IMG/VR virus record: IMGVR_UViG_3300031801_000013 | Coordinates: 1 to 28,643 of that record | Length of the DNA: 28,643 nt | Source of the DNA: a virus | Reading direction: 5' to 3' (one strand) | Shown here: positions 3,276 through 19,008 of the stretch, in pieces | Numbering within the stretch: the first letter of the stretch is position 1 | How the letters are laid out: each line of letters starts with the position of its first letter | Program-made: the position numbers and the translations under genes | Notes under the pieces: model-generated | Told to the model about the DNA's origin: nothing | The model's input: only the letters and a program-made list of their open reading frames with translations | Databases searched by the model: none

Positions 3276-3662
3276 ATGAGTACACCGATCCCAAATATAT
3301 ATCAAAAACTATTAGATTCCTTTCCGTTTCTAAGTTTTTGTACCCAAGGTAATAACGAATTCATTGGTATTATACAAAACATGGATAATGTTTTATGCTC
3401 TATGTACATATACGAAAACATCCGGCAAGAAGAAGGTAAAAAGATATTCTTAGAATTAGGAGATGAATGGTGGTGGGGATCAAATAGATTAATTCCAATT
3501 AATATTATATTAGGTGATCGCTTTAGACCATTTAGATCTATATTACGAACATTCAATGCTAAAGACTTTACATTAGTCCATGGCCACGAAATTAGCTTAC
3601 AAAATATAATGCAGAAACGAATTAAACGACGTCAAATACAACTAGTTCGTAAAATGAGTTAA
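3276..3662 (+). CDS. Conserved-type phage protein of unknown function (plus-strand island)
   Basis: This 128-aa protein is one of only two plus-strand genes in the window. It is a soluble mixed alpha/beta protein with a striking 'ELGDEWWWGSNRLIPINIIL' segment (residues ~60-79) and a strongly basic C-terminus (KRIKRRQ...VRK). I recognise the general pattern (Trp triplet, SNR, basic tail) from hypothetical proteins of marine T4-like phages, but know no function. The basic tail could contact nucleic acid; that is inference. It ends by overlapping the stop of the minus-strand U32-like gene by about 4 bases, so the two are convergent with no room for a terminator. The 84-aa antisense frame over it is a shadow. 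Confidence 0.7.
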   Translation: MSTPIPNIYQKLLDSFPFLSFCTQGNNEFIGIIQNMDNVLCSMYIYENIRQEEGKKIFLELGDEWWWGSNRLIPINIILGDRFRPFRSILRTFNAKDFTLVHGHEISLQNIMQKRIKRRQIQLVRKMS

Positions 3663-4858
3663 ACTTCCAAAACTGAATCTAATCTTTTGGTACCAAATAC
3701 ATCATCACACATATGACATTTATAACATTGGTTTTTACAACTCTTTAAAACCTTTGCTAATTTAATGGCTTCTTTACTATTCCAAAAATGTGTGGTTAAA
3801 TTATCTTTAATTTCATCTATATCTGTAGTTGTGGGGAAGTCTTTCTTTATACAACTGATACTAAACCACATATGAAGAGGTGCTAAATTGTTTTCATATA
3901 TTGTTTTAAAACTATCCGCGGAGAACGATCTACGTTTTGTTTCTATTGCGTAAAGTAATTTATCATTCTGATCAGTATCGCCTAAATTTTTTAATCTTCC
4001 AGATAGTTTAAATATATCTACTAAACTTGCAAATTCGTCCCAATCTTTATTCGAATGAATAATAAGATCTGTACTTGTTCTTGGATTAGTAACACCTGGT
4101 TCTAAATAATTACCATCAGGTCCGGGATGTAAGTCTAATTCATTTCGCCAACCAACACATGTATCACCTATCATTTCCCAATAATTATGTCCAGAACCTA
4201 CTAGTTCTCCACTTTGCCAACAATCATGTTCTGTTTTAAAAGGACATTCTGGTAAACAACTTTCGAACACTAAAAGACAAGTTTTTATACCCAACCTGTC
4301 TGCTTCCTTTTTTACCTTTCTTAATTCACTACGATTTCTATTAAAGTCTCTATCCAATTGAATTGTTGTATAACCTAAATTAGCATAATCAATAAACTGT
4401 TGCGTAGTTCTGATTCCATGATTAACTGTATTCTTCCAATCCATTTCTGGAAATGCTTCTTGCAAAACACCTAATCGCATTAAATGAGTGTGGCTTATTG
4501 TACAACTTCTAACGCCATCTGCATAATATTTTCCTATAAAATCTACAAAGTCTTTTGTAATATCAGGACGAAGCATATGCATTGGTCTATTCATTTCGTT
4601 TATTGTTAACGAAATAGGAATCCCATACTTTTCTTGAATTGTTAATAAATTTTTATAGTGTGCTTCGGATGCATCTACTCCCATAGTATTACCATATCTT
4701 AAACCAGACGAATGATAAAAAGTAGCACCATAGTAAATATCATAGATTTCATTTTTATATTGTTCAGAGGAATTTTCAAAACATCTTAAATATAGATCTT
4801 CCGAAGGTGTACTATCCCAATGTCCTATTGAGAATTTTTTATTATATAGTTCTTTCAT
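3659..4858 (-). CDS. Peptidase-U32-like protein (TIM-barrel type), probable Fe-S protein, copy A
   Basis: This 399-aa protein has the alternating beta/alpha rhythm of a TIM barrel. Three features point to the U32 family: 'DGVRSCTISHTHLMRLG' followed by a later 'LGYTTIQLDRDFNRN' strand, the Cys pair in 'FESCLPECPF' (C-x3-C-P, about residue 208), and 'FKLSGR' (about residue 297), which fits the KxEGR signature of U32 proteins. The C-terminus adds a cluster 'CKNQCYKCHMC', a likely second metal or Fe-S site. Known U32 relatives are Fe-S proteins that hydroxylate RNA bases or quinone precursors, or that act on protein; the substrate here is unknown. It starts with an ATGA overlap with the DnaE-like gene, so it is last in the purE-DUF1289-DnaE-like operon. 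A second copy with the same C-x3-C-P and FKLxGR pattern is at 26132-27157. Confidence 0.6.
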   Translation of the reverse strand: MKELYNKKFSIGHWDSTPSEDLYLRCFENSSEQYKNEIYDIYYGATFYHSSGLRYGNTMGVDASEAHYKNLLTIQEKYGIPISLTINEMNRPMHMLRPDITKDFVDFIGKYYADGVRSCTISHTHLMRLGVLQEAFPEMDWKNTVNHGIRTTQQFIDYANLGYTTIQLDRDFNRNRSELRKVKKEADRLGIKTCLLVFESCLPECPFKTEHDCWQSGELVGSGHNYWEMIGDTCVGWRNELDLHPGPDGNYLEPGVTNPRTSTDLIIHSNKDWDEFASLVDIFKLSGRLKNLGDTDQNDKLLYAIETKRRSFSADSFKTIYENNLAPLHMWFSISCIKKDFPTTTDIDEIKDNLTTHFWNSKEAIKLAKVLKSCKNQCYKCHMCDDVFGTKRLDSVLEV

Positions 4859-5415
4859 ATTAAATTCATATGTACAATTACTAAATGAGCGTATGCGATT
4901 GCATGTGATTTTTTAAAGTAATAAGTACCATCTGCTGGCTTTTTCCATACTTCTTCAAATACTTTATTCCAACTTTCTCCTAATAAATATCGCTTTGCAG
5001 GACGTATTATTGCCAATATTGCCGCCAGCTGTTCTACAGTGTCTGGCTTCATTTGTCGTATAATATCACTATGATTACTTATATGAATTAACTGCTTTAT
5101 AAATTCTTCTTCTAATAATTTATGCCATGGTGGTTCTTTGAGCATTAATTCTACAAGATGCTGTTCACTTGTAATTTGATTATATACTCCTACATTAAGG
5201 ATGTCTAATTTAAAAAACCCTTCATCTTCTGCTTCTTTGTGATCAATAGTTGCTAATCCTGTTATAGGATTTTTTGACATTTTATGAAAGTATACACCTG
5301 TATTATGCTTAACAAAACTTTTATCTTTAGTTAAAGATGCTGGAGTATGCTCAAACAAGTTTAAAACACTTTCACGATTTGCTACATCAATATCAATATC
5401 TGTTGTAGATTTCAT
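4855..5415 (-). CDS. Miniature DnaE-like protein (DNA polymerase III alpha catalytic-core fragment)
   Basis: At 186 aa this is far too short for a DnaE (about 1100 aa), yet it carries, in the right order, short blocks that match PolIII alpha. 'TDIDIDVANRESV' (residues 5-17) matches the 'PDxDxDF..RE.V' block with the catalytic Asp pair. 'GFFKLDILNVG' (66-76) matches 'KxDxLGL' with the third catalytic Asp at D71. 'AAILAIIRPA' (131-140) matches the 'xxLxRPGP' block. 'YFKKSHAIAYAHL' (166-178) matches the 'FNKSHAxAYA' block. The intervening regions are greatly shortened. It overlaps the DUF1289 gene (ATGA) and the U32-like gene (ATGA), so it is an intact, translated cassette gene and not decayed DNA. 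Whether it polymerises anything is unknown; it could be a degenerate nucleotide-binding or clamp-related factor. The family assignment rests on eye alignment only. Confidence 0.6.
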   Translation of the reverse strand: MKSTTDIDIDVANRESVLNLFEHTPASLTKDKSFVKHNTGVYFHKMSKNPITGLATIDHKEAEDEGFFKLDILNVGVYNQITSEQHLVELMLKEPPWHKLLEEEFIKQLIHISNHSDIIRQMKPDTVEQLAAILAIIRPAKRYLLGESWNKVFEEVWKKPADGTYYFKKSHAIAYAHLVIVHMNLI

Positions 5416-5693
5416 TTAATTAACTTTCCATATAGTTGTTTTCTTTTTTTAATATCTTCTAATGCTTGTAATTTTCTAGGTATATCCCATGCCCACCAAT
5501 TAGTAAGTTCTTCTTTATTTCTATAACAACCTATACATATATTTTCTTCTTCTGATAAGTCTGGAGAATAACTACATATATCTATGCATGGTGAAGGTAC
5601 TGTTATGTCATTTCTTTGTGGGCGCTTAATTCCTAATAATTTTTTATCAGGCCCTGTTGCATATTCCGACCCATATGGTTCTTTTTTTATCAT
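5412..5693 (-). CDS. DUF1289 family small Cys-motif protein
   Basis: This 93-aa protein carries the DUF1289 signature: 'PSPCIDICSY' (residues ~33-42), then 'ICIGCYRNKEELTNWW' (~52-67), i.e. C-x3-C followed by C-x2-C and the Trp after the acidic turn. The four cysteines suggest a bound metal or Fe-S cluster. The usual bacterial DUF1289 protein is 55-90 aa and has no firm function. It overlaps purE by one base (TAATG type) and the DnaE-like gene by four, which makes translational coupling likely. The ~30-residue N-terminal extension is basic and not part of the motif. Confidence in the family is good; the role is unknown. Confidence 0.8.
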   Translation of the reverse strand: MIKKEPYGSEYATGPDKKLLGIKRPQRNDITVPSPCIDICSYSPDLSEEENICIGCYRNKEELTNWWAWDIPRKLQALEDIKKRKQLYGKLIK

Positions 5694-6178
5694 TAATCAT
5701 CTCGCCAAATATCGGGTTCATCATCATTACTAAGAACAAGAGTACCTCCTACGTCTCTTAATGTAGCAGGCTTTGCACTTTTATTTAATATACGTATTGC
5801 AAATAATGCGGCATTAACAGCACCATGCTTTCCAATAGACATACATGCTACAGGAACTCCTCTTGGCATTTGTGATATACTTAACAAACTATCTAATCCA
5901 TTTAACCCCGAAGTCATTGGCACACCTATAACGGGTAAGTCTGTATATGCGGCAACAACTCCTGGTAATGCAGCTGCCATACCCGCGGCGGCAATAATAA
6001 CTTGATTACCTCTTTTTACTTTTGCTTCTTTAACCCATGTTCTAACCTTATCGGGGTCGCGATGTGCGGATGCCACAACAATGTCAAACTTTATATTATG
6101 TTCTTGTAATGTTTCAACACAATGATTCATTACTTCTGAATCAGATGCACTGCCCATTATAATTCCTACTACAGCCAT
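5693..6178 (-). CDS. purE: N5-carboxyaminoimidazole ribonucleotide mutase (PurE), phage-borne
   Basis: PurE converts N5-CAIR to CAIR in de novo purine synthesis, so this is an auxiliary metabolic gene likely to boost nucleotide supply during infection. At 161 aa it is full length for class I PurE. It shows the '[10 protein letters not shown]' phosphate loop (residues 8-17), '[10 protein letters not shown]' with the conserved active-site His at residue 39, and the C-terminal block '[20 protein letters not shown]'. One usual class I residue is missing: the 'AAHLPG' turn reads 'AAALPG', with Ala at residue 70 in place of His. The codon is GCA, not a one-base change from a His codon. It could be a less active or altered PurE. 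It overlaps genes on both sides by one base. No purK or other pur gene is in the window. Confidence 0.92.
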
Positions 6179-6411
6179 TATGTTTTCCTCTTTGATTTTT
6201 TATAATATCCAGTCTTTATATAGTTTACTAAATCTTCTAATATTTTATCTGATGAAACAGACCAATTTACTCCACAACCTCGTAAATAGTTTTCTGCTCC
6301 GCCCCTATCGAATGGACTTTTAGAATACCTGTCAATGATTTTATTTTTGATTAGTATTTTACTAAGATCTTCTTTTAGTAATCTAATTGATTCCTGCTTC
6401 TTTAAAGACAT
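6178..6411 (-). CDS. Small basic protein of unknown function ('[11 protein letters not shown]' motif)
   Basis: This 77-aa protein is charged and helical, with no membrane segment. The central '[16 protein letters not shown]' (residues ~30-45) resembles the SPxDRGxAxxYY motif found in many small hypothetical proteins of marine T4-like phages and their hosts. The C-terminus is Lys-rich (KKSKRKT). It starts inside the 3' end of the zinc-finger gene (29-base overlap) and its stop overlaps the purE start, so it is the link between the two groups. I know no function. Confidence 0.6.
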
Positions 6412-7057
6412 GTTCTATCCATGCTGAGTCCTTCTCATTAGTACTTATTTTTTTCTGCCAATAACTAGGCTCTATATAATCTGCTATCATTTGTATTTGT
6501 TCTTCTGACATCCTGTCTAATAATTTTTGTGCTCCAGAACAACTATAAAGTATCCATGGAGAAATTCTTCCTGACTTAATTAAATGTACCGACATATTAG
6601 TAGATACTTTATTAAAGAAGTTAGTCCAATCTTCGTTACATTCTGCAGACCACTCTTGCATTAATATTATACTTCGTTCTACTGCTCTATCTACAGATTC
6701 TTTTTTCATTAAGTCACAAATATATTCATTGTATACAGAATCTTTACTCCAATCATCTATCCGTACACCCATTCGCAAAACAAAATCTATAAATGCTTCT
6801 GGATTAATTGCATTTATATCTAAAATATACTTTCCAAACTTAACAAATGCCTTATAGTATTTTGAATCAGCAAACTCATCGTATGTTTTATCATGTTTTG
6901 TATTTGTGTTATTTGAATAAAAATTTTGATATGCTCTAAAACCTAATTGAACATGTCTGTCACCTTTAACCATATGGCGCCGTTTTTGTTCACACATATG
7001 AACCGCTAACGTTTGTTCTCGCGCAAATTCACGTTCACAATAACCACATTTATACAT
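6383..7057 (-). CDS. Protein with N-terminal C2H2-like zinc finger, unknown function
   Basis: This 224-aa protein opens with 'YKCGYCEREFAREQTLAVH', i.e. C4 and C7, then H20 and H28 (or C22), the layout of a classical C2H2-type finger. Basic residues follow (KRRHMVKGDR), suggesting nucleic-acid contact. The remaining ~170 residues are helical and rich in Trp and Glu, with no motif I can name. The gene sits one base from clamp-loader gp62 (TAATG-type overlap) and next to replication genes, which is consistent with a role in replication, repair or transcription; that is inference. Similar finger-bearing hypotheticals occur in marine T4-like phages. The first Met is the natural start because the finger begins at residue 2. 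Confidence 0.7.
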   Translation of the reverse strand: MYKCGYCEREFAREQTLAVHMCEQKRRHMVKGDRHVQLGFRAYQNFYSNNTNTKHDKTYDEFADSKYYKAFVKFGKYILDINAINPEAFIDFVLRMGVRIDDWSKDSVYNEYICDLMKKESVDRAVERSIILMQEWSAECNEDWTNFFNKVSTNMSVHLIKSGRISPWILYSCSGAQKLLDRMSEEQIQMIADYIEPSYWQKKISTNEKDSAWIEHVFKEAGIN

Positions 7058-9607: not shown

Positions 9608-10630
9608 TCATTCTTCTAGAACTTCTCGTTTCATACAAGTCATTTCTGCTAGACGCTTCCACTTCTCATCTTTGGGAGCCATTTTAAACAAGTCTGCAAT
9701 TTTGAGTACCATTCTCAATGATATTTCACGCAGTTTTTCCTTGTTATCATCGATGTACTTAACAATCATTTCTTTTTCGCCTTCAGCAAGTTTATGATTA
9801 TCCAGCATACCGTCTCCGACAACCTGTTTAATACGGAGCATCCTATCACGCATTGTATCAAGTGTCAAATCTAAATAATGACAACGAGATAAAATCGCCT
9901 TCAAGTGATCTTTAACTTTACCTAACCTTCCACCACTAACCATATCATCAAATTTAAGGTTTGATATAAAAATTATTGATCCATTAAACTCGTAATAATC
10001 AGGAACTCCTGTGCGCCGTAACATAGACGAATCAGCATTCCAAAACAGTCGACGTTTCTTACCACTGTCCAATGCACCCTTTAAAAGGTTCAGTGCTAAT
10101 TCATCGAATAATATAGTATCACAGTCATCTAGCACTAATACCTTACCTTTGTCGGCCCAGGCATATAACAAAGTATAAAGACCAATGGGCGTCATTGCAC
10201 CTTTTATAATATCATACTTAACTGGCTGACTACCTATCTTGTTAAAGATGTTAGCTCGTTCTAGCACTGCTTCAACACCAAATGACTTACCTACTCCCGG
10301 AGGACCCGATACAATCATGCCACGGACTGTACCTTCCATTGTTGCTTCTGTCATTTCATCCAGGATTGCAAACCGCTCACGGATCTCAGTCATTCGCTCT
10401 TCGTCGGTTTGTTCGTTTCTTTTCTTCTCGGCAGTTGGAACCATTGGTTCATACCCATTCTTGCCAAGTTTGATTCGGATTTTTCTGTTGGGATATCCGG
10501 CAACCCTAGATCCATCAACTGTAATGTACCCACCGCGTTTTCCTAATTTCCATCCTTTATGTAAGGGAAACACAGTATTGGTAACAGCCTTGCCACCATA
10601 CTCGCCGTTAAGAATACGGACTTTTCGCAT
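9608..10630 (-). CDS. AAA+ ATPase of phage type, unknown target
   Basis: This 340-aa protein has two parts. The N-terminal ~65 residues are basic and Gly-rich with short strands ('VRILNGEYGGKAV', 'KRGGYITVDG'), possibly a small beta-barrel. The AAA+ core follows: Walker A 'GPPGVGKS' (109-116), Walker B 'VLVLDDCD' (164-171), sensor 1 'FISN' (221-224) and a likely Arg finger R249 in 'LSRCHYLDL'. The C-terminal ~80 residues form a helical lid. It lacks the gp44 clamp-loader signatures (no SRC motif in the right context, no zinc site), so I do not call it gp44. It stands alone between a strong sigma70-type promoter (10671-10699) and a terminator (9530-9557), a single-gene unit with three repeats upstream. 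Codon use is less AT-biased by eye than its neighbours. Confidence 0.85.
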   Translation of the reverse strand: MRKVRILNGEYGGKAVTNTVFPLHKGWKLGKRGGYITVDGSRVAGYPNRKIRIKLGKNGYEPMVPTAEKKRNEQTDEERMTEIRERFAILDEMTEATMEGTVRGMIVSGPPGVGKSFGVEAVLERANIFNKIGSQPVKYDIIKGAMTPIGLYTLLYAWADKGKVLVLDDCDTILFDELALNLLKGALDSGKKRRLFWNADSSMLRRTGVPDYYEFNGSIIFISNLKFDDMVSGGRLGKVKDHLKAILSRCHYLDLTLDTMRDRMLRIKQVVGDGMLDNHKLAEGEKEMIVKYIDDNKEKLREISLRMVLKIADLFKMAPKDEKWKRLAEMTCMKREVLEE

Positions 10631-10670
10631 AATAATAACCCTCTTCTAAGTTCACACTTCCACTATATAT

Positions 10671-10699
10671 ATGATAACCTCATATGGCAGATCTGTCAA
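10671..10699 (-). promoter_or_regulatory. Sigma70-type promoter of the AAA+ ATPase gene
   Basis: TTGACA (10694-10699) and TATCAT (10671-10676) are separated by exactly 17 bases on the minus strand. The gene starts 40 bases downstream of the -10 box, after an AGAGGGT Shine-Dalgarno-like stretch. This suggests early expression by the host polymerase. Confidence 0.8.
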
Positions 10700-10728
10700 C
10701 CGGTATTTCTTGGTGTTTTATTAATGAT

Positions 10729-10802
10729 ATCAATGACTTACAGAAATTTTGGAAAATGCCCTAAAATCAATGAGTTATAAACCTAGTAAAATCAATGACT
10801 TA
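10729..10802. repeat. Three direct repeats of TAA[G/C]TCATTGAT upstream of the AAA+ promoter
   Basis: The 12-base unit ATCAATGA[C/G]TTA occurs at 10729-10740, 10766-10777 and 10791-10802 (plus-strand reading). The last two extend to a shared AAAATCAATGA.TTATAAA. Spacing is 37 and 25 bases. They lie about 30-100 bases upstream of the -35 box, a plausible place for a regulator or iteron-type binding site. The rest of this 205-base gap holds only the promoter above. Confidence 0.7.
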
Positions 10803-10835
10803 TAAAAAATGTTAAAACCCGTACTGGTTACAGGG

Positions 10836-11390
10836 TTAATGTTGCACCGTTAACGGATTTTCCCGTGTAGTTTGTGTGGTAGTTTCTGTTTCTTTTGCTG
10901 GAGCAGGAAATTCATCAGCAAATTTATATTGTAGTTGGGGTTCACTGCCTTCGCGAAATTCTTCAGTACCGTCTTGTGCCTTAAATTCTCCTTGGGCATC
11001 TCTTCCTCCTTGTGTACCTTCTTTCATTTTTCGTAAACCTTCTTTATCGTCTTCGGTAACTGGAAAGAGATATAAACGATCAGTATTATCTTCAAATAAA
11101 TGTGCCAATAATAATGCATGAGCTTTTTCTTCTATATATCGTTCTTCATGCCATATGTATGACCATTTTCCTTGCGGAAATTCATATCTAGGTAAACCAA
11201 ATATAGAAGTAATCCATATTAATGTAGCAAAAATAAGACCAAAGGCCATTGGGGGAGAAATCCATTTTATTATGACATTAACATCTCTACTTTGACATAA
11301 TGTATATACACACATTGTTGATATAACAATTGCTGTTAAAACAAGAGTAGGTGCCGATACAGTTAAAAGTTTTAATATATATTCAATCAT
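10836..11390 (-). CDS. Two-helix membrane protein, third member of the ion-channel-like cassette
   Basis: This 184-aa protein starts with two membrane helices, about residues 11-32 and 46-66, joined by a short polar loop (CQSRDVNVIIKW). The remaining ~115 residues are soluble, charged and partly disordered: an Arg/Glu helix 'EERYIEEKAHALLLAHLFED' and then Gly/Gln/Glu-rich sequence ending in a Thr-rich tail. I do not recognise a family. It overlaps the ExbD/MotB-like gene by four bases (ATGA), so it belongs to the same message and probably the same complex. A role as regulator, plug or assembly partner of the channel is inference. If both helices insert as a hairpin, the soluble tail and N-terminus face the same side. 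Confidence 0.65.
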   Translation of the reverse strand: MIEYILKLLTVSAPTLVLTAIVISTMCVYTLCQSRDVNVIIKWISPPMAFGLIFATLIWITSIFGLPRYEFPQGKWSYIWHEERYIEEKAHALLLAHLFEDNTDRLYLFPVTEDDKEGLRKMKEGTQGGRDAQGEFKAQDGTEEFREGSEPQLQYKFADEFPAPAKETETTTQTTRENPLTVQH

Positions 11391-12091
11391 GGCGTTCCCT
11401 GTCCCGGAGGCGGCGTGGCTACTTCTGTTGACGTTCCCTCGATCATTGTATTCGACCCACCTCGATCTAAACTACTATCTTGATCATATGTAATACTACC
11501 AGACATAATCCAATTTGTTTTTTCATAATTTATATCAAAAACATTTCCATTGTCTGTCATAATAAAATTGAACGCAGTTGCCTGTTGCCCCCGTGTTGTT
11601 AATATTATTTCTTGACTGGCTATTAATTTATAAGGCTTATTATCCCATAACTCTATTATTACCGGAATAGTAGCAGTGTCAACATCTTTTTTATTATACC
11701 AATGAATATTAACTCTCCATTGACCAGGAATAAAGCCTCTAATAAAAATAAATTCTTGGTTTTGATACACTACTTTTCTCTCACCATTTACTATTGCCCA
11801 ATCATTTGTATGGCCCAAATCATCTTTTTCTAAATTAGTATATCCTGCTTCTCTACTTCTATAGCCTATTTTATTTCCTGCAGGATCTCGTACCCATAAA
11901 TCTACATCATTTGCATCATGATCGGGCCATGTCATTCTAATAATAAATTGTACATCGGGGTCCATATTTTTTTCTGTAGTAGGAGGTGAAATAAGAATAA
12001 ATGCTATAATGAATAGCATAACAAAACCAACTGTTAAATTAAAAAGTAAATCTACGAATGCAAACGTGCTTCTGTGTTTTCGTCTATCCAT
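11387..12091 (-). CDS. ExbD/TolR/MotB-like membrane protein with large beta-rich periplasmic domain
   Basis: I place the start at the ATG at 12091, one base after the upstream stop and behind a GAAGAAA ribosome-site-like stretch; an in-frame GTG at 12112 would add seven residues. The protein (234 aa) has a short basic N-terminus and one membrane helix, 'FVDLLFNLTVGFVMLFIIAF' (residues 12-31). It carries Asp14 at the place of the conserved proton-binding Asp of ExbD, TolR and MotB. The ~200-residue remainder would be periplasmic. It has no OmpA-type peptidoglycan-binding domain; instead it has 'NDVDLWVRDPAGN' (61-73) and 'PGQWRVNIHWY' (122-132), which suggest a beta-sandwich of the DUF2135/YfaP kind. 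Family position is by topology and the Asp; function unknown. Confidence 0.75.
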   Translation of the reverse strand: MDRRKHRSTFAFVDLLFNLTVGFVMLFIIAFILISPPTTEKNMDPDVQFIIRMTWPDHDANDVDLWVRDPAGNKIGYRSREAGYTNLEKDDLGHTNDWAIVNGERKVVYQNQEFIFIRGFIPGQWRVNIHWYNKKDVDTATIPVIIELWDNKPYKLIASQEIILTTRGQQATAFNFIMTDNGNVFDINYEKTNWIMSGSITYDQDSSLDRGGSNTMIEGTSTEVATPPPGQGTP

Positions 12092-12092
12092 T

Positions 12093-12587
12093 TCATTTCT
12101 TCGAATAAGCACCAGAAGTCTTTTTCGGTGCTTTTCTTGGAGTTGAATTTTCTATATTGATTAATTGGAATTTAATTAATAAACTACAAATTAGACCTAA
12201 CAATGTAGTAGTCAATGCTGTACTCATTCCTACTGCCAATTGACCTATTGCTCTCTGTAATGTTTCAGTTTCTTCGACATTAATATTTAGGAATGCTGTA
12301 CCCAACATCAATAGAAAACCTGCCACAGTTCCTATCATACCAACAGTTATGCAGGCTTCGCTAAAGAACCAAACAGGTTCAAGATTTAATCTTTTATTAC
12401 TATTTTTATATTTTTGATAAGAAAGACGACCGCAATATAACGATACTATTAAGAAACTAATTAGAATTACAAAACTGAGTTTAGTTACATCATTTTCCCA
12501 TAACCATATATGCAGATTTTCATATAAACAGTATGCTCCGCTAACTGTCAATAATCCTGTAAAAATCCACCATCTCCAAAATACCAT
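12093..12587 (-). CDS. ExbB/TolQ/MotA-like proton-channel protein
   Basis: This 164-aa protein has four membrane helices (about residues 7-26, 36-53, 73-99 and 115-141). The third and fourth carry the ExbB/TolQ/MotA signature: 'VGMIGTVAGFLLMLGTAF' (82-99) and 'AIGQLAVGMSTALTTTLLGL' (113-132), with the polar Thr/Ser residues that line the ion path in this superfamily. It is very compact: the large cytoplasmic loop of MotA or TolQ between helices 2 and 3 is only ~18 residues here, and there is no long cytoplasmic tail as in ZorA. In the family, five such subunits surround two partner helices, and proton or sodium flow turns the complex. The partner is the overlapping ExbD/MotB-like gene. A late-type promoter and a GGAGA ribosome site precede it. 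Confidence 0.87.
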   Translation of the reverse strand: MVFWRWWIFTGLLTVSGAYCLYENLHIWLWENDVTKLSFVILISFLIVSLYCGRLSYQKYKNSNKRLNLEPVWFFSEACITVGMIGTVAGFLLMLGTAFLNINVEETETLQRAIGQLAVGMSTALTTTLLGLICSLLIKFQLINIENSTPRKAPKKTSGAYSKK

Positions 12588-12629
12588 ATATTGTCTCCAG
12601 TGGCCATCAATGACCGTGTCATTATATAG

Positions 12630-12637
12630 TATTTATT
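12630..12637 (-). promoter_or_regulatory. Late-type promoter core (AATAAATA) before the membrane cassette
   Basis: AATAAATAC overlaps the stop of the OB-fold-like gene, 42 bases upstream of the channel-gene ATG. The wider stretch closely matches that before the 333-aa gene (17431-17438): both read TAATAAATAC and then TATAATG a base or two later. This makes chance less likely. Confidence 0.6.
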
Positions 12638-17430: not shown

Positions 17431-17438
17431 TATTTATT
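17431..17438 (-). promoter_or_regulatory. Late-type promoter core (AATAAATA) of the 333-aa gene
   Basis: AATAAATAC lies 23 bases upstream of the ATG at 17407, just overlapping the 3' end of gp17. Its surroundings match the core before the membrane cassette closely. Confidence 0.65.
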
Positions 17439-19008
17439 ATATTATACCTATTGGCATAGGTTTAATATCGCCGCCTTCGTCTTCGTCGAATGTATCTTGT
17501 AATGTATCAAATATAGTACCATCAAATTGTCCTATTGTTATTGCCATACGTACTACTAATAATGTTGCCATAACAAGATCATCTGTATTACCATCTTTAG
17601 CGGCATAGGACGCTCCTCGTGCTACAAATGTTTTTGTTTCGCGAATAAGATTTGGACTGCACATTATCATTTTATCATTTTCTACCCAACTTTTAAATTT
17701 AGCACATGCAGTTAATTTGCTTTTATTTGTTGTTGTAAATCCTAGTCTATATCTACGAACACTACCTGCTCTTTTGGGTTCACTAAGAAATGTGCCGGGT
17801 ATATTATCTTCGCCCATTTCACGGATTACAACTAAAGCTGCTTCTCCTAATGTATTATTTTCTACACTCCAATATATTTCTGATGTGTTTTCGCTTTCTT
17901 CTTGTATTGTATTACACATTTCGCGTAGAATTCTTATTTGGCCCTGTACAGGTGTTTTATTATGCATCCATTCTGCAACTTGTTTACATCCTGGCAATTC
18001 ATATACTTGAATAGCCGCATTATCGCCGCCTGTACCTAAACTAGGATCTAAACCAAGACAATATACTTTATCCTTTACTATAGGAGAATACCATCTAATT
18101 TGCCCTGTTTTACGTACAACACCATGACTTTCTAAAAGAGGTAATTTAAGATTACTAATAAGAGTTTCGTCGTTTGTAATAAATTCACACTCGTGTTCTC
18201 GTCTAAATCTATCTTCCCCTATTTTTGCTTTTTCTAATGATGCCCATTTTTCATCTCTATCTGGGTGTTCGGGCCATTTTACTAATATAGAAGCAAATCC
18301 GTTTCTGCCAACTGGTTGGTCATTTCCATATGAATCTACTGTGTTTATTGCTTCTCTCCAAATTCGTGCAAATTGATCGTCGTCTTGATTGGGCGTAGAT
18401 GTAATAAGACATTTACCTCCTGTAGATAATGTAGGAGATAATGCTGTCCAAAATTCAGATGCAATACGTGGGGGTACAAATGCAAACTCGTCTAAGTATA
18501 TTAATGTTAAAGATAAACCTCGACCAGTAGTTTCGGTTGTTGCTTGAGATATAATTCTAGACCCATTGTCAAATTCTATAGAATTTCTATTATATGCAGT
18601 TACTCCTGCTCTAATAAAATTAGGTAAACTTTCATATGCAAAACGCACCCTTGTCATTATTTCCTGTGCGCCCGAATACTTATGAGCTGCAATAAGGATT
18701 GTACTATCTGATTTAAACATAGCATACCATAACAGATATCCTGCCGCACAAGTAGATTTTCCGGTTTGTCTAGCAAGCATAGCAATAGAATATCTATTAT
18801 TATGATATACGTCTATTAAATCTCTTTGATAATCGTATAAATTGAATTTTATACGTCCTAAAATAGGATGTTGTATAAGACAGTATGCATTTAAGAAATA
18901 TGCAGGATCATCATAACAATCTTGTAATTCTTTTAACTGCTCTTTTGAAAACGTCTCTGATCTATGAGGTTTTTTGATTAACTGTGTATCAACAGTGGAA
19001 CTGACCAT
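17437..19008 (-). CDS. 17: Terminase large subunit gp17 (packaging ATPase and nuclease)
   Basis: gp17 powers DNA packaging into the prohead and cuts the concatemer. This 523-aa protein has Walker A 'ARQTGKST' (79-86), Walker B 'LIYLDEFAF' (169-177) with its catalytic Glu, and the coupling motif 'TSTPNQ'. In the C-terminal RNase-H-like nuclease the three acidic residues are D321 ('GLDPSLGTGGDN'), E383 ('WSVENNTLGE') and D477 ('NTDDLVMA'). T4 gp17 is 610 aa, so this is shorter, mainly at the N-terminus. No Shine-Dalgarno sequence is seen; a GATAAATA late-type core ends only six bases before the ATG, and an upstream in-frame stop rules out an earlier start. A terminator hairpin separates it from the 420-aa gene. 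Confidence 0.96.
   Translation of the reverse strand: MVSSTVDTQLIKKPHRSETFSKEQLKELQDCYDDPAYFLNAYCLIQHPILGRIKFNLYDYQRDLIDVYHNNRYSIAMLARQTGKSTCAAGYLLWYAMFKSDSTILIAAHKYSGAQEIMTRVRFAYESLPNFIRAGVTAYNRNSIEFDNGSRIISQATTETTGRGLSLTLIYLDEFAFVPPRIASEFWTALSPTLSTGGKCLITSTPNQDDDQFARIWREAINTVDSYGNDQPVGRNGFASILVKWPEHPDRDEKWASLEKAKIGEDRFRREHECEFITNDETLISNLKLPLLESHGVVRKTGQIRWYSPIVKDKVYCLGLDPSLGTGGDNAAIQVYELPGCKQVAEWMHNKTPVQGQIRILREMCNTIQEESENTSEIYWSVENNTLGEAALVVIREMGEDNIPGTFLSEPKRAGSVRRYRLGFTTTNKSKLTACAKFKSWVENDKMIMCSPNLIRETKTFVARGASYAAKDGNTDDLVMATLLVVRMAITIGQFDGTIFDTLQDTFDEDEGGDIKPMPIGII

Follow-up and report, generated by a model that had tools for sequence, protein, structure and literature searches.

A phage-carried three-gene locus with a compact MotA/TolQ/ExbB-type channel protein and a TerD-like predicted fold: a candidate ion-driven envelope motor or channel

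Can a phage carry an ion-driven machine of its own for the envelope of its host? The question is raised by three consecutive genes, here termed A, B and C (Table 1), on a virus record of 28,643 bases, which was analysed over its whole length and is referred to below as the window. The minus strand of the window carries a T4-type gene set (UvsX, UvsY, a gp32-type SSB, UvsW-type and DnaB-type helicases, primase, terminase, tail sheath and tail tubes), and the neighbours of the trio are phage replication and structural genes. An earlier note on this DNA had read the trio as an ExbB/ExbD-like, that is MotA/MotB-like, ion-channel cassette with a third membrane partner, and the three open reading frames are indeed real and lie where it had placed them on the minus strand. 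Elsewhere in the window, the terminase (17437-19008) has its closest counterparts, at ~53-55% identity, in the PA5oct group of jumbo phages (~287 kb) and in Sinorhizobium phage Phosso (469 kb), and the region 3659-7057 holds several unnamed genes, including a short DNA polymerase-like gene (4855-5415, 186 aa); the polymerase may be split.

Table 1. Position of the trio and of the putative promoter element preceding it in the window.
Feature	Position	Strand	Description
Gene A	12093..12587	-	164 aa; channel subunit of MotA/TolQ/ExbB type with very little cytoplasmic loop or tail
Gene B	11387..12091	-	234 aa from ATG; open frame extends to GTG at 12112
Gene C	10836..11390	-	184 aa; start overlaps B stop (ATGA)
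ATAAATA late-promoter-like site	12630..12636	-	42 nt upstream of gene A

The genes are tightly packed, and the way in which they join required one correction. B had been described as overlapping A, whereas its start codon is most probably the ATG at 12091 and not the GTG at 12112, as in the relatives L010 and L014, so that A and B lie one base apart (TGAAATG) without overlap. The ATGA coupling of B and C was confirmed, and the numbering of Asp14 in B is correct when counted from the ATG at 12091. Comparison of the window with its relatives gives dN/dS values that are lowest in A (~0.07-0.09), followed by B (0.25-0.30) and C (0.36-0.56), and on these ratios all three genes are under purifying selection. 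Because the values are low and homologues of all three genes recur together, the trio is more than a chance arrangement.

Protein A belongs, on sequence homology, to the MotA/TolQ/ExbB channel family, as its signature helices had suggested. It matches the Pfam model MotA_ExbB (PF01618) with 30.5 bits (E 3.3e-7; gathering cut-off 22.9), so do 17 of 18 phage-type relatives at E 0.1 or better, and a profile of A run against the PDB finds MotA, ZorA, TolQ and ExbB chains, the best being MotA 8gqy (5.9e-7), with ZorA 8qyy also close. The closest curated subfamilies are those of ZorA (NF033917, 5.7e-8; PADLOC ZorA2, 2.3e-8). By hydropathy, A has three clear helices and a weaker, Trp-rich first helix, which together with its homology points to a four-helix protein. 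The third and fourth helices carry the signature GMIGTVAGF ... TTTLLGL with the polar-ring Thr residues: in a census of 63 distinct A sequences, Gly83, Gly86 and Thr128 (the latter in TM4) are invariant (63/63), Thr87 is kept in 50 and replaced by Asn, Lys or Ala in the other 13, and Asp33 is near-invariant, with a single exception. What sets the phage proteins apart is their size. The cytoplasmic loop has a median length of 22 residues in phage versus 88 in cellular sequences over the same alignment interval (p 8e-10, uncorrected for relatedness and with L074 counted on the phage side), and it is short in every phage lineage; the earlier description of a very compact channel subunit, almost devoid of cytoplasmic loop or tail, therefore holds.

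Protein B has one helix by hydropathy, and its AlphaFold model (pLDDT ~70) consists of a helix (residues 4-34), a beta-sandwich (47-189) and a low-confidence C-terminal tail (193-234). This bears out the proposed single-helix protein with a membrane Asp as in MotB and ExbD: Asp is found at this position in 51 of 63 distinct sequences, including all phage members. In one cellular clade (L056, L058 and L064-L072, 11 distinct sequences), whose A and C are intact, its place is taken by Val, and in one sequence by Ala, so that loss of the residue presumed to carry the ion is compatible with persistence of the trio; the Val clade is possibly a non-conducting form. The periplasmic domain had been predicted to be a beta-sandwich rather than OmpA-like, and both the model and a structure comparison of residues 46-192 (VIA-align) agree with this. 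The top match is TerD 3ibz (Z 11.7, 3.4 A over 133 residues), followed by 2qng and 2qz7, and the TerD-fold matches (Z 11.7, 11.0 and 10.6) stand at the head of the list, above unrelated rows. Acidic motifs, DVD and RDDLGxxND, are conserved in B. The TerD family (PF02342) is absent from a Pfam search of B up to E 10, profile-profile alignment of B with TerD (hhalign) gives a probability of 0.9%, and sequence homology between the two was set aside, as neither hhalign nor hmmsearch gave a signal against reversed and shuffled decoys. On a predicted model of moderate confidence, the sandwich thus appears TerD-like at the level of fold only.

The earlier note would have counted a lack of profile matches to MotA_ExbB and ExbD/MotB against its reading; the first match was found for A, whereas the second was not found for B. 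Searches with hmmscan returned no ExbD, TolR or MotB family for B up to E 10, nor for 19 members of the B family up to 0.1, and sequence searches of Pfam, PHROGs, NCBIfam, PADLOC and the PDB gave nothing convincing for B or C. B is assigned its role as a channel partner by architecture, gene order and the membrane Asp, and not by family membership. No part of a profile built from all B sequences was conserved well enough for scanning DNA. Some longer cell proteins detected with the B profile carry DUF2135 across part of the matched region; B itself falls below the DUF2135 model, and no homologue of A or C was found beside the DUF2135-containing proteins.

The two-helix third partner proved to be a constant member of the trio: almost every locus that extends sufficiently beyond B has a C homologue after it, in some cases with a small gene in between. 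Hydropathy gives two helices for C, and its AlphaFold model has transmembrane helices at 2-33 and 39-64 followed by a beta-rich domain. An OB-like identity of this domain was set aside, since the structural matches were weak (Z 7). Between gene C and the next gene (10716-10810) lie three near-repeats around AAGTCATTGAT, which are kept in L009, L010 and L014 and are possibly an operator or termination region.

The suggestion that the trio is made late in infection gains support from the ATAAATA site before A. The window holds fewer copies of this motif than chance predicts (11 observed versus 24.7 expected), yet its minus-strand copies are all located 5-80 nt upstream of a gene start (9/9; binomial p ~5e-10), the genes behind them including those for tail sheath, tail tube, virion and terminase proteins. 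Among these copies, the one that precedes the SSB gene shares bases with a sigma-70-like promoter and could be a chance occurrence. The copy before A is kept in five relatives (L009, L010, L012, L013 and L014). Since all nine sites precede genes and the one before A is conserved, the trio is probably transcribed late, as judged from motif position. In contrast, the ATPase gene at 9608-10630 is preceded by a sigma-70-like promoter (TTGACA-17-TATCAT, within 10660-10710).

Far from being a peculiarity of marine phages, where its relatives were to be sought, the trio is also present in rhizobial phages and on alphaproteobacterial chromosomes. A search with B found 27 phage records, which stem without exception from phages of Rhizobium or Sinorhizobium and cover several types (T4-like Pootjesviridae, RHph_I1_18 of 171 kb, phages of 68 kb, and the 16-3 group); in each of the eight phages inspected, A precedes and C follows B, with small genes between in the temperate ones. 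Further copies reside in prophages of Ensifer, Shinella, Rhizobium and marine alphaproteobacterial MAGs. Of 385 alphaproteobacterial genomes sampled, 65 match B, ~55 of them strongly (E below 1e-35; ~14%), and nearly all cellular loci fetched from this sample carry the complete trio; 398 genomes sampled across the phylum gave 16 strong B matches. All phage loci and almost all cellular ones preserve the order A-B-C. Homologous genes are present in Azospirillum brasilense Sp7, and Azospirillum copies lack annotation in the record. Several cellular loci lie beside chromosomal genes (SufB, aspartate dehydrogenase, a periplasmic binding protein, histidine kinases), often with no phage genes in sight. 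A gene for a trypsin-like serine protease is located just upstream of the trio in temperate phages and prophages (L003, L005, L006, L023-L029); L074 and L098 share this protease, and some loci counted as cellular may be prophages. The trio is an alphaproteobacterial system found on chromosomes and in rhizobial phages.

As a whole, the locus seems best explained, with moderate confidence, as a self-contained ion-driven envelope motor or channel of an undescribed subfamily. The conserved Asp and Thr residues, the constancy of the trio and the missing loop together point to an ion-driven channel or motor with periplasmic output. In the proposed model, A, B and C would form one inner-membrane complex, in which five A subunits, a number taken from the family, would surround a B dimer with Asp14 of B facing the polar ring of A (Thr87/Thr128). 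Ion flow would then move B, whose TerD-like sandwich would, in the periplasm, contact a partner of the envelope, with C as a dedicated accessory subunit bearing a periplasmic domain. The phage copy would be a reduced form of a three-gene envelope motor of alphaproteobacteria, having neither the cytoplasmic loop by which MotA engages the rotor nor the ZorA tail; for want of these parts, it must act either in the periplasm or through the ion flux itself. A tentative view, held at somewhat less than even confidence, is that Alphaproteobacteria have an undescribed, self-contained ion-driven envelope motor with a third subunit and a TerD-like head, of which at least two phage lineages carry a cut-down form comprising the channel and the periplasmic part and so would drive a motor of their own in the cells they infect. 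The phage trio probably works alone and not via a host copy. Its most likely use would be to alter the envelope of the infected cell late, for example for superinfection exclusion or for holding the envelope until lysis, and any such particular purpose is proposed with low confidence.

Could the phage proteins instead be decoys? Phage A and B would then be built into the host trio, into ZorAB or into some other stator-like system and knock it out, since hybrids with the loop missing would be inert. The loss of most of the loop in every phage lineage fits such a role, as do the closeness of A to the curated subfamilies of the ZorA anti-phage proteins and the presence of a cellular trio in ~14% of the sampled alphaproteobacterial genomes. 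However, the Ensifer, Shinella and Metarhizobium genomes with a prophage trio that were checked contain no second B homologue, which makes a decoy of a host copy less likely, and the phage copies retain the Asp, the polar Thr and the whole C gene, for which a decoy has no obvious need; A is, moreover, under strong selection. We regard this explanation as improbable.

The history of the family bears on a further alternative, namely that the trio is an auxiliary gene set, acquired by the phage from a host, that boosts a host envelope function such as the handling of nutrients or ions and plays no part in lysis or against other phages. In a careful tree of A and B, the family falls into two fully supported halves, both of which contain phage copies, and the starred branches require at least two changes of phage/cell label. 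A quick tree joins the window group with chromosomal copies from genomes of ~1 Mb and 28% GC (support 0.785), and the cells with these small genomes hold the trio at a fixed chromosomal place beside SufB and aspartate dehydrogenase, in keeping with an auxiliary set. The grouping was set aside, as the careful tree does not resolve it; the phage loop also differs from that of nearly all cellular copies, and the promoter is of late type, while early expression is the more frequent pattern for auxiliary genes in T4-like phages. We regard an auxiliary role as similarly improbable.

Similarly improbable is a late ion channel related to lysis, which would collapse or tune the proton motive force and time holin triggering: the late-type promoter before A and the modules of the temperate phages RHph_X2_25 and TM3_3_14B, a few kb from lysozyme genes, fit it, but in T4-like Rhizobium phages the trio lies near gyrase, late sigma factor, recombination nuclease and clamp genes instead of lysis genes, and its chromosomal homologues have no visible lysis genes.

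If the ion-driven envelope motor or channel favoured here is real, phages run such a machine in the envelope of their host, a widespread alphaproteobacterial operon gains a first mechanistic frame, and the phage copies illustrate how compact such a motor can be made. The model is testable in Rhizobium, for which trio-carrying phages such as 16-3, where A, B and C are p038, p040 and p042, and P10VF have already been isolated. In the literature searched, largely without subscription journals, we found no phage-encoded stator-like ion motor, and work on ExbB/MotA in phages, on Zorya, on the lysis of 16-3 and on TerD gave no description of the trio; a search on DUF2135 found no paper. The superfamily of A is known; the combination of three genes, the TerD-like head and the carriage by phages were not found described in that literature.

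Compared with the known systems, the trio resembles the MotA/TolQ/ExbB (PF01618) and MotB/TolR/ExbD pairs in the signature and polar-ring Thr of A, in the N-terminal helix of B with its Asp, and in the adjacency of the two genes. It differs from them in that A, at only 164 aa, has almost no cytoplasmic loop or tail, in that B has a TerD-like sandwich replacing the OmpA-like or ExbD/TolR periplasmic domains and matches no ExbD/MotB profile, and in the constant third gene C. With the DUF2135 cell proteins it shares detection by the B profile, but neither a DUF2135 match for B nor neighbouring A or C genes. The critical Asp and the Ser/Thr ring of Zorya ZorA/ZorB (PMC11890865; 8qyy) are shared by A and B. 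In contrast to Zorya, A lacks the ZorA cytoplasmic tail, its match to ZorA models being confined to their membrane part, B lacks the peptidoglycan-binding ZorB domain, C has no Zorya counterpart, ZorC, ZorD and ZorE are absent, and the genes are carried by a phage. Finally, the predicted fold of B is similar to that of TerD, whereas B itself would be membrane-anchored and periplasmic.
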